IMG/VR virus record: IMGVR_UViG_3300022723_000063
Coordinates: 1 to 27,660 of that record
Direction: 5' to 3' (one strand)
DNA: 27,660 bases
From: a virus
This document shows positions 3,872 through 15,207 of this stretch, piece by piece (positions within the stretch are counted from its first letter, which is position 1; each line of letters starts with the position of its first letter). The position numbers were made by a program, and so were the translations under genes. The notes under the pieces are model-generated. The model was not told the origin of the DNA, searched no databases, and worked only from the letters and a program-made list of their open reading frames with translations.

Positions 3872-4047
3872 AAGACAAATTGGAAGACGCGGTGAGCGAA
3901 TCCGTGCGGCGCGATGTCGAGCGAGACGCTCTGAAGCGCGCGGAGACGGTCAGTGAAAGGAATTTATGGCGATCGATTTACGATTACGATCGAGACGCAT
4001 TGCTCGACGAGCTTTATCCTGACCGGCCACGATCGAGAAAGCTGTAA
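3868..4047 (+). CDS. Small charged hypothetical protein (59 aa)
   Basis: ATG 3868 overlaps the stop of the preceding gene by ATGA and has GGAGCGGGAGCG just upstream as ribosome site. The 59-residue product starts MKDKLEDAVSESVRRDVERD and is rich in Asp, Glu, Arg and Lys, with a probable amphipathic helix for the first 35 residues and a YDYDRDALLDELYPD segment after it. The size, coupling and codon pattern support a real gene although it is short. No family recognised. Its place between the recombination and replication genes suggests an accessory DNA-metabolism role. Confidence 0.6.
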   Translation: MKDKLEDAVSESVRRDVERDALKRAETVSERNLWRSIYDYDRDALLDELYPDRPRSRKL

Positions 4048-4143
4048 TCACGTTGATTTTCGGGGCGGCGGTGGCTCTCCTATTCGTGTTTCAATTCCAT
4101 TCCAGCCGCCGTCGCCCGTTTTTTCTTTGTTCGAGGTATTTGC

Positions 4144-4974
4144 GTGTCCAGTGGATGGGTAAAATTACACAGGCGAATCAAGCAGAGCGAGATAGCTCGG
4201 CGGCCCAATCAGTTCCTCGTGTGGTGCCACTTGCTAGTGATGGCACAGCATGGCCCGAGCACGATTACGTTCAAAGGGAAGCCTCACAAGCTAGAGCCAG
4301 GAGATGTTGTTACAGGCAGGAAGCAGCTCGCTGAGGATACGGGGTTACCCTTATCAACCGTGGAGGACTCCCTCAGATGGCTAGAATCCCGACAACAAAT
4401 CCGCCAACAGAAATCAAATAAAGGTCGAATCATTTCAATAACTAACTGGGATGAATTTCAAAGTCCCGACAGCCAGCCGACAACCAACCGACAACAAACC
4501 GACAGCCAGCCGACAACCAACCGACAACAAACCGACAGCCAGCCGACACTCAATAAGAATGAAAGAATGAAAGAATGTAAGAATGAAAGAAAGAAGAATA
4601 CCCCCTTACCCCCTAAAGCACACAAATCTTATGGCGAAAACTCATTCGTGCAGCTGACCGATGAAGAATACCAGAAACTCGAAAGCAAATTCGGGAAGCT
4701 CGAACTCAAAACTGCGATCGCCGTGCTCGATGGCTGGATTTCCTCAAAGCCGAACCAGCTCGAGTGGTTCAAGAAAAAATATTCTTCAGCGTTCCACGTA
4801 CTGAACCCGATAAGCTCCTGGGTGTGGCAGCGCGTCGAAGCCTTGAAGAAGAATTCTCAAATGCAAAACGGAATTCAGTCGATGACAAGTGCGCAGTTTG
4901 CGCTCGCTCTCGCGCGGCAGTTCGAAGCAGAAGAAGCAGCAGAGGAAGCAAGGAAAGAAAATGAAAAAAAGTGA
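4144..4974 (+). CDS. Phage replication initiator (O-like, winged-helix N-terminus)
   Basis: 276 residues from GTG 4144, with GAGGT eight bases upstream. The start SSGWVKLHRRIKQSEIARRPNQFLVWCHLLVMAQH is the usual opening of phage helix-turn-helix replication proteins (replisome organiser / DnaD-like group). Residues 40-105 (ITFKGKPHKLEPGDVVTGRK ... TGLPLSTVEDSLRWLES ... GRIISITNWDEFQ) form the winged-helix DNA-binding domain. Residues about 108-137 are a tandem DSQPTTNRQQT repeat coded by the in-gene iterons. The C-terminal part (about 165-276) is helical and ends in a Glu/Ala/Lys-rich tail; it probably contacts the loader or helicase. The helicase loader gene follows with a 14-base overlap. 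The arrangement closely parallels lambda O/P. Confidence 0.75.
   Translation: MSSGWVKLHRRIKQSEIARRPNQFLVWCHLLVMAQHGPSTITFKGKPHKLEPGDVVTGRKQLAEDTGLPLSTVEDSLRWLESRQQIRQQKSNKGRIISITNWDEFQSPDSQPTTNRQQTDSQPTTNRQQTDSQPTLNKNERMKECKNERKKNTPLPPKAHKSYGENSFVQLTDEEYQKLESKFGKLELKTAIAVLDGWISSKPNQLEWFKKKYSSAFHVLNPISSWVWQRVEALKKNSQMQNGIQSMTSAQFALALARQFEAEEAAEEARKENEKK
4466..4600. promoter_or_regulatory. Probable replication origin: 11-bp iterons plus A-rich tract
   Basis: Eight consecutive 11-bp units, each starting CCGACA, run from 4466 to 4553 at 4466, 4477, 4488, 4499, 4510, 4521, 4532 and 4543. They occur in three types (CCGACAGCCAG, CCGACAACCAA, CCGACAACAAA), the set of three repeating every 33 bp. The 11-bp step is about one helical turn, so all sites face the same side of the DNA. 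Immediately downstream (4554-4600) is a purine-only, A-rich tract built on GAATGAAA/GAATGTAA units, suitable for unwinding. Iterons inside the initiator gene followed by an A-rich region are the known layout of the lambda origin. Origin function here is inferred. Confidence 0.6.
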
Positions 4975-5479
4975 AGTGAGTTTACTTCTCGCAGAAATCA
5001 GTGCGGCGTTTCCGAATTTCCACGTCACGAACGAAACACACCGCGTTTGGTTGGAGCATCTGAAAACTCAAACTTTTGCGGTGTGTCGAAAAGCACTCGC
5101 CGAATACATTGCAGCGAGTAACACGGAGTGGGCTCCGTCGGTGTCGCAGCTTCTACACCGCGTAGCGCAAGCTACGCAGCAGCCCGAAGCAAAACTCACG
5201 TTTTATGAGGCACGCGATTTGAACACCGAATATTACCAACGCGCTTTTCAGCTGTGGGGTGGTGCACGACGGTGGGCAACATTACCCGATCCGTTGTACA
5301 CCGGAAAGAGCCAAGACCAACGGACGCTCGACTTTGCACTGCGCGACATTGAAAATATTTACAACGACCAGAAAGCGCGAGCGACTGCGCAGCACGCAAT
5401 CGACGTTCGCGCAAACGGAGCCGCCGAAGTGACGAAGCTCGTGCACGCAATTCTCGGGGATGGAAATGAACAAACGTGA
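4961..5479 (+). CDS. Helicase loader / G39P-like protein
   Basis: 172 residues from ATG 4961, chosen because AGGAAAG lies just upstream and the product then begins MKKSEVSLLLAEISAAFPNF. The frame is open further upstream but that part overlaps the initiator gene. Residues 1-75 fit the 'loader and inhibitor of phage G40P' family (PF11417 as I recall): a S-E-V..LL..I..A.PNF..T..T...W...L start and an 'APSVSQLL' (PPTIAEI-like) end. In SPP1, G39P binds the initiator and delivers the hexameric helicase to the origin. Residues 76-172 are an extension with Trp and Tyr (YYQRAFQLWGGARRW) not found in short G39P. The 14-base overlap with the initiator gene supports coupled expression and joint action. 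Confidence 0.7.
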   Translation: MKKSEVSLLLAEISAAFPNFHVTNETHRVWLEHLKTQTFAVCRKALAEYIAASNTEWAPSVSQLLHRVAQATQQPEAKLTFYEARDLNTEYYQRAFQLWGGARRWATLPDPLYTGKSQDQRTLDFALRDIENIYNDQKARATAQHAIDVRANGAAEVTKLVHAILGDGNEQT

Positions 5480-5720
5480 TTTTGCAAAACACGCACACGC
5501 GCAGCTCGCCGCCGGGCTTGTACCGATTTTCGGTGAGAACGCCGAGCGCCGGGACTGCTATCGCTGGGTGCGAGCGGATCGAGCCTGCGTTGCCGGAGGG
5601 ACCGTCACGCACAAAGGATTTAAATTTCTTAGGTTTTTACGGCAACATCCGCCTCGGCCAGGTTTTAGTATTCAGCCGGATACAGAATCGCCCGCTGCCA
5701 AGATTTGCGATTCTAGCTAG
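5466..5720 (+). CDS. Small hypothetical protein, frame uncertain
   Basis: 84 residues from ATG 5466 (MNKRDFAKHAHAQLAAGLV), overlapping the loader gene's end by 14 bases with GGGGATGG upstream; ATG 5460 is an alternative. The first 50 residues look protein-like. The rest (FKFLRFLRQHPPRPGFS) looks less so, while another frame (GTG 5476 to 5724) reads more naturally in the second half (DLNFLGFYGNIRLGQVL). Either could be the gene, or a single-base indel near 5610 could have split one gene. Both frames end in the CTAG tract. It is the last gene before the terminator of the replication block. No function recognised. Confidence 0.4.
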   Translation: MNKRDFAKHAHAQLAAGLVPIFGENAERRDCYRWVRADRACVAGGTVTHKGFKFLRFLRQHPPRPGFSIQPDTESPAAKICDSS

Positions 5721-5728
5721 CTAGCTAG
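5713..5728. repeat. (CTAG)4 tract giving stops in all six frames
   Basis: Four perfect copies of CTAG. TAG occurs at 5714, 5718, 5722 and 5726, covering all three plus-strand frames; because CTAG is its own complement the minus strand is closed likewise. The tract directly precedes a terminator hairpin at the border between replication and structural regions. Confidence 0.9.
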
Positions 5729-5747
5729 CTCGTGACGCGAGTTTTTT
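5727..5747 (+). terminator. Rho-independent terminator after the replication block
   Basis: AGCTCG (5727-5732) and CGAGTT (5738-5743) pair around a five-base loop with one G-T pair, and six T residues follow (5742-5747). The stem is short, but position at the end of the rightward early genes and before a 200-base gap fits a terminator. Confidence 0.5.
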
Positions 5748-14699: not shown

Positions 14700-15140
14700 A
14701 TGAAGACAAACAGACTATTAGTAAGTTTTGCGCTAATCACAGCAGCACTTATATTCGCGGCCGCCGAGTTTGGCGAGAGTATGAAGTTCTCAGCGGGGCT
14801 CGAGACTGACACGATCAGCGAATTCACGTCAGCCGCAGGCGTAACCGCCGATGGTGTTTTGTTAAAAGACGGCAATGTCGATCTGCCGACGACGGGAAAA
14901 ACACTCATTCTCGAAGATGGTACAGCGGCTTCAACGTGTGTTGGTACGGGTACGCTTACAGCCGCTACACCCGTCACTATCGCGACGACTTGCATTGCAA
15001 CAGGTGACTACGTATTCATCACGCGCTCGAGCGCCGACACGGATGGCGCTGGTACCGAATACGTTGATAACATCGTCGACGGCACGAGCTTCGACGTCAC
15101 AAGCGTGACAGACGACACCGCCACTTTCAATTGGTGGTAA
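14700..15140 (+). CDS. Putative surface/decoration-like protein with signal-like N-terminus, truncated by duplication
   Basis: 146 residues from ATG 14700; a longer frame from 14640 lacks a ribosome site. The N-terminus MKTNRLLVSFALITAALIFAAAEF resembles a signal peptide or membrane anchor. The next part, SAAGVTADGVLLKDG, is a motif I recall from phage head-fibre and tail proteins. The C-terminal half (TCVGTGTLTAATPVTIATTC ... GTSFDVTSVTDDTATFNWW) is a beta domain with two cysteines. The reading frame ends at TAA 15138-15140, formed by the second copy of a 70-bp tandem duplication. Without it the protein would end NWWIVKGQ, five residues longer (stop 15223-15225 in present numbering). The fold is probably little changed. 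Confidence 0.65.
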   Translation: MKTNRLLVSFALITAALIFAAAEFGESMKFSAGLETDTISEFTSAAGVTADGVLLKDGNVDLPTTGKTLILEDGTAASTCVGTGTLTAATPVTIATTCIATGDYVFITRSSADTDGAGTEYVDNIVDGTSFDVTSVTDDTATFNWW

Positions 15141-15207
15141 CATCGTCGACGGCACGAGCTTCGACGTCACAAGCGTGACAGACGACACCGCCACTTTCAA
15201 TTGGTGG
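15068..15207. repeat. 70-bp perfect tandem duplication
   Basis: Bases 15068-15137 are repeated exactly at 15138-15207. Seventy is not a multiple of three, so the copy changes frame and its first three bases (TAA) end the upstream gene. The second copy and the old gene end (15208-15225) are now untranslated. Confidence 0.95.

Follow-up and report, generated by a model that had tools for sequence, protein, structure and literature searches.

Does a tandem repeat within the coding part of a phage initiator gene serve as the replication origin of the phage, or does it merely accompany the protein that it encodes? The question is raised by a 27,660-bp phage contig (the window, i.e. the whole stretch of DNA analysed), in which the initial annotation had placed a lambda-like origin inside the gene of a winged-helix replication protein. 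The features of the locus are collected in Table 1.

Table 1. Features of the initiator locus, in positions of the window.
Feature	Position	Strand	Basis and remarks
Replication initiator gene, replisome-organizer-like	4144..4974	+	276 aa, GTG start; PHROG matches and predicted structures
Winged-helix DNA-binding domain, residues 1-106	4144..4461	+	AlphaFold2 mean pLDDT 87; Foldseek wHTH neighbours
Recognition helix, residues 70-82	4351..4389	+	Predicted structure; S71, E74 and D75 covary with iteron sequence
Wing loop, residues 91-94	4414..4425	+	K93 and G94 covariation weaker
Disordered linker, residues ~108-160, encoded by array and tract	4465..4623	+	pLDDT < 50 for residues 112-160
Iteron array, 8 direct units CCGACANNNAN, last unit CCGACACTCAA	4466..4553	+	Exact 11-bp steps; step conserved in family
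A-rich putative unwinding tract, directional AAGAATG units	4555..4599	+	8-bp step; stability and family motif counts
Helicase-loader-like gene, G39P-like near threshold	4961..5479	+	phrog_2289 E 1.4e-10; PF11417 E 0.0011

The initiator gene and its iteron array

The predicted structure of the initiator comprises an N-terminal winged helix, a disordered linker and a helical C-terminal domain. In profile searches its N-terminal domain matched phrog_2514 (DnaD-like / replisome organizer) with an E-value of 1.8e-33, a profile also matched by 38/38 aligned relatives, and further matches were obtained with the DnaD-like PHROGs 186 and 7498 and with the O-like phrog_345 (E 7e-8). PF04492 (Phage_rep_O) was not matched by the initiator at E<=0.001 and was matched weakly by 3 of the 38 relatives. 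Foldseek neighbours of the predicted N-terminal fold were TubR (3m8f), 4rs8 and AspA (5k5q), with TM scores of 0.48-0.50. PHROG matches and predicted structures agree that the array is hosted by a winged-helix replication protein, as had been annotated.

The last residues of the winged-helix domain are ITNWDEFQ, and the array begins directly after them. The eight consecutive CCGACA units described initially are exact: they start at 4466, 4477, 4488, 4499, 4510, 4521, 4532 and 4543, and CCGACA opens all of them. The units are asymmetric, 11 bp long, and occur as the variants CCGACAGCCAG, CCGACAACCAA and CCGACAACAAA. The longest 11-bp hexamer run in 30 Markov shuffles was 2, and no other hexamer of the window was repeated more than four times at any step of 7-29 bp; at a step of 30 bp one hexamer was repeated six times, in a Q/P-rich repeat near 470. 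Because 11 is not a multiple of 3, the units pass through all three frames and necessarily encode an 11-residue peptide repeat. Its translation, DSQPTTNRQQT, and its predicted disorder are both as annotated. A 33-bp sequence is present in the array in 2.5 exact copies, which show that the array recently grew by three units, the smallest frame-preserving step. It had also been proposed that the units lie one helical turn apart on one face of the DNA. The 11-bp step is consistent with one unit per turn, but the common face does not hold strictly, since the turn of B-DNA is slightly shorter, and over eight units the drift would come to about 120-140 degrees in DNA that is not underwound.

Several other repeats were noticed in the window. 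At 4389-4410, inside the winged-helix coding part (residues RQQIRQQK), CCGACAACAAA is followed by a degenerate CCGCCAACAGA; this sequence precedes the array by 77 bp, or 7 x 11 bp, which puts the two in phase, and may be a stray unit or chance. Q/P-type tandem repeats with periods of 9, 12, 30 and 63 bp occupy 461-683 and overlap a minus-strand ORF (377-1510) that has a weak match to an Imm5 immunity protein (Pfam E ~1e-5). A 70-bp perfect tandem duplication is present at 15068-15207 in the structural region, and GCTA repeats occur at 5713-5733, near the end of a small ORF after the helicase-loader-like gene.

Conservation of the 11-bp step among relatives

Relatives were gathered by N-terminal protein sequence alone, blind to repeats, together with seven named phages, and were reduced to 147 non-redundant loci. 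A search of viral contigs with the whole initiator protein as single query found no relatives; alignments of the N-terminal domain did find them. In the 99 bp after the domain, mean lag-11 identity was 0.538, as against 0.276 in downstream controls, and lag 11 was the best of all lags up to 20 in 124/147 loci (6/141 downstream controls). When codons were resampled synonymously with each ORF's own codon usage, the observed lag-11 identity exceeded the resampled value in 147/147 loci (0.573 vs 0.435; p<0.05 in 124), and a control stretch of the same ORFs gave no such excess (4/137). Because synonymous resampling lowers lag-11 identity in every locus, it is shown that the repetition is kept as DNA and that selection on the peptide alone is insufficient.

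With the 99th percentile of controls as threshold, an array was scored in 135/147 viral loci (median 4.5 units, starting ~17 bp after the domain), and 12/147 had none above threshold. The unit sequence varies among loci while the step stays 11 bp: unit types include CCGACAACAAA, TGAACAACGAG, CGACCAGCAAA, CTAACAAGCAA, GGAAGGGCAAA and more, and the linker peptides differ as well (DSQPTTNRQQT, VNNERTTSEQR, ANDQQTTSKRP and others). The expectation that the CCGACA 11-mer would be conserved where the peptide diverges was thus borne out for the step but not for the hexamer; CCGACA is one of many unit sequences among relatives and was rejected as a universal iteron. On the coding strand the arrays are composed of 50% A, 28% C, 15% G and 6.5% T.

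Array-bearing relatives come from phages of Pseudomonas, Pseudoalteromonas, Pantoea, Staphylococcus, Listeria and Lactobacillus, and from genomes of Bacillota, Planctomycetota, Verrucomicrobiota, Bacteroidota, Spirochaetota, Nitrospirota and others. Among 64 prokaryote-genome relatives, 22 had no array above threshold, mostly the most distant ones. A DNA scan also revealed non-coding (TGCCGACACCC)n arrays with an 11-bp period at loci L007, L017, L025, L030, L033, L042, L051 and L114, often as two inverted arrays ~100 bp apart in the gap beside terminase-small-like and nuclease-like genes. As independent proof they were set aside, other genes adjoining them and no initiator relative being seen nearby.

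Recognition-helix covariation and the A-rich tract

Mutual information of the unit with each of 100 N-terminal columns was computed, the permutations being made within sequence clusters. At all clustering thresholds used, S71 and D75 were the top two covarying residues; E74 came shortly after them in most cases. Residues 71, 74 and 75 lie on one face of the predicted recognition helix. In a decoy rerun the z scores were 7.3 for S71 and 5.8 for D75, followed by K93, R59 and G94, and decoy DNA from the same genes reached at most 3.1. K93 and G94 are wing residues; R59 was discounted, as it also tops the decoys. The signal is carried by two or three exposed positions of the recognition helix only, and a rank test over the whole helix was not significant (p=0.24).

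At position 2 of the unit, Arg75 was accompanied by G in 36/38 training loci, Asp75 by C in 9/10 (the present phage, with D75 and CC, is of this type) and Lys75 by T in 5/5. In a second collection, drawn from prokaryote-genome relatives and not strictly independent, as it may include close kin of the training loci, Arg75 again went with G in 18/19 loci. The finer code failed there, with Asp to C in only 1/3 and Lys to T in 0/4, partly because the unit register is ambiguous in divergent arrays. The rule of Arg75 with G should be the only one trusted. Covariation with recognition helix and wing points to recognition of duplex DNA.

The tract that follows the array had been described as purine-rich, A-rich and suited to strand opening. 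Its composition was confirmed (AAGAATGA-type units with an 8-bp period), and it ranks among the contig's three least stable stretches of 45 bp (0.13 percentile). The 45 bp that follow the array in relatives have an A content of 57%, and in 81% of 135 loci the tract is in the lowest 10% of ORF windows by stability. AAGAAT was observed 227 times in relatives, vs 61.7 +- 7.0 under synonymous recoding, and the share of AAG among Lys codons is 65% in tract codons vs 32% elsewhere. Within the 20 bp that follow the array, AAGAAT has a density of 48.5 per kb, as against ~1 per kb elsewhere; its orientation is almost always forward (228 vs 5 reverse), and it occurs out of codon frame in 23 loci. In 42 of ~90 loci the start of the first AAGAAT is 11 or 12 bp downstream of that of the last unit. 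The usual step in relatives is 9 bp; here it is 8 bp, so that one DNA motif, passing through all three frames, is translated as KNERMKECKNERKK. Next to the array, the A-rich tract forms a second DNA element, and one with a direction. Unlike the iterons, the AAGAATG motif is common to different recognition-helix types, and its recurrence suggests that it plays a physical role or has a common reader. A reading of the AAGAATGAT tract as a DnaA-trio was rejected, since by eye it misfits in two of three triplets.

The origin reading and known systems

Taken together, these features make it highly probable, as far as can be judged from sequence, that 4466-4599 is the theta-replication origin of the phage, lying within the linker-coding part of the initiator gene and working by a winged-helix/iteron array, tract opening and the loader. 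The conserved 11-bp step, the synonymous excess and the recognition-helix covariation support the initial proposal of a lambda-like origin inside the initiator gene. A change of GC skew near 4500, which had been expected along with it, was not found; the contig has no clear minimum there, and its skew minimum is at 2074.

What we infer from these features is the stoichiometry of binding, the opening of the strands, the loading of the helicase and the function as origin. The N-terminal winged helix would bind each non-palindromic 11-bp unit, one domain per turn and head to tail, reading the unit through the wing and through residues 71, 74 and 75 of the recognition helix. The nucleoprotein array so formed would open the adjacent AAGAATG tract, at which the C-terminal domain and the neighbouring G39P-like loader would place the helicase. 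Since an 11-bp pitch is slightly longer than that of relaxed B-DNA, a straight array of eight units would hypothetically underwind the DNA by ~0.4 turn, and opening may be driven by such underwinding, brought about by domains packed 11 bp apart. As to the loader, the annotation of a G39P-like gene next door agrees with the match to the helicase-loader profile phrog_2289; PF11417 (SPP1 G39P) was matched near threshold, its score of 19.9 bits being below the curated cutoff of 22. That the adjacent gene would work like a G39P loader is suggested by phrog_2289 and gene order. In the relatives KLEP17-4, Pantoea PA-1, phiAT3 and Orisa03 the neighbours are DnaC-like or DnaB-like.

Other explanations of the array have to be weighed against the origin reading. 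One possibility is that the repeat is a feature of the protein, namely a flexible Gln/Asn/Thr-rich linker grown by tandem duplication, with the DNA repeat as a by-product. The predicted disorder of the segment and the 33-bp copies, a frame-preserving expansion unit, would suit this. As sole explanation, however, it is contradicted by the synonymous test in 147/147 loci, and neither a step that is no multiple of 3 yet holds across differing peptides nor unit bases that covary with recognition-helix residues would be expected from it; we regard it as extremely improbable. It also seems highly unlikely that the array has its role in RNA or single-stranded form, for instance as an unstructured CA-rich strip onto which helicase, SSB or an RNA-binding protein would load, the 11-nt step then being no duplex signal. 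The coding strand of the arrays is T-poor and hence would have little structure, and AAGAATG is strand-specific, but it is not obvious why single strands should need a step of 11 nt, and the covariation with recognition helix and wing favours the duplex.

Initiators often self-repress through iterons, and the array lies within the initiator's own transcription unit, so that it might instead be an operator or an autoregulatory or copy-control (handcuffing) site for the initiator, with strand opening elsewhere. Its place in mid-gene and not at a promoter, with no sigma-70-like site in 3900-5600, renders this very unlikely, as does the low-stability AAGAATG tract that typically comes after the array, as for an origin. 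Returning to the origin reading, we lean towards the broader view that the relatives represent an unnamed, widespread class of phage origin. In this class a winged helix would read asymmetric 11-bp iterons in the DNA of its own linker, two or three residues of the recognition helix would rewire its specificity, and beside the iterons would lie a conserved directional AAGAATG unwinding element, constant as the iterons diverge and probably read single-stranded by a shared factor.

In most sequenced phages the origin is unmapped. The layout described here would allow a likely origin, its binding unit and a likely unwinding element to be read from the sequence by itself, in phages and prophages across many phyla, Bacillota, Pseudomonadota, Bacteroidota, Planctomycetota and Verrucomicrobiota among them. 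Gene and site share one stretch of DNA, and so protein and site can co-evolve; such pairs are a natural set of matched winged helices and iterons on which a recognition code may be tested. The locus also illustrates that selection can act chiefly on the DNA of what appears to be a low-complexity linker of a protein.

Among known systems, the centromere-binding winged helices of TubR/tubC and AspA (pNOB8), proteins that coat DNA in successive arrays, are alike in fold only (TM 0.48-0.50), their role being plasmid partition and not replication. Origins inside initiator genes are already known from lambda, r1t and Tuc2009. The lambda ori in gene O and phi80 gene 15 likewise have direct iterons and an adjacent A-rich tract in the middle of the initiator gene, after the winged helix, and a loader or helicase-loading gene is adjacent, as here. 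The repeats differ, as the initial annotation had noted: lambda has four 18-bp iterons at steps of 20-24 bp (two turns) and phi80 has four 15-16-bp sites at steps of ~21 bp (two turns), whereas the present array consists of eight asymmetric one-turn units of 11 bp and contains no lambda-type ~18-bp dyad iterons at two-turn spacing. Neither lambda O nor phi80 gp15 was matched directly by the family profile. Lambda O works in dimeric form, and plasmid replication of the lambdoid p27 was abolished when the iterons within gene O were altered silently (PMC7466680).

The counterparts in unit length are the lactococcal replisome organizers r1t ORF11 and Tuc2009 Rep, which carry in-gene 11-bp direct units (GGAACCGAAAT type and CAACCAAGTGT type, respectively) in the same location as here. 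The Tuc2009 Rep record is annotated as origin-containing, and the organizers of Tuc2009 and TP901-1 are reported to bind direct-repeat regions of their own genes, which serve as ori (PMC8965321). Both r1t and Tuc2009 differ from the present initiator in N-terminal sequence and in their C-terminal domains (Phg_2220_C, Rep_Org_C). In Staphylococcus phage 80alpha (ORF20) and in TP901-1 (ORF13) the initiator gene is thought or shown to carry the origin (PMC5499656 and PMC8965321, respectively), as proposed here, at a repeat step of 15 bp and not 11; the 80alpha record has an annotated rep_origin. Against the searchable literature, outside which lie most subscription papers, reviews of phage replication modules included, neither the widespread 11-bp class with its partial recognition code nor the AAGAATG element seems to have been described before.
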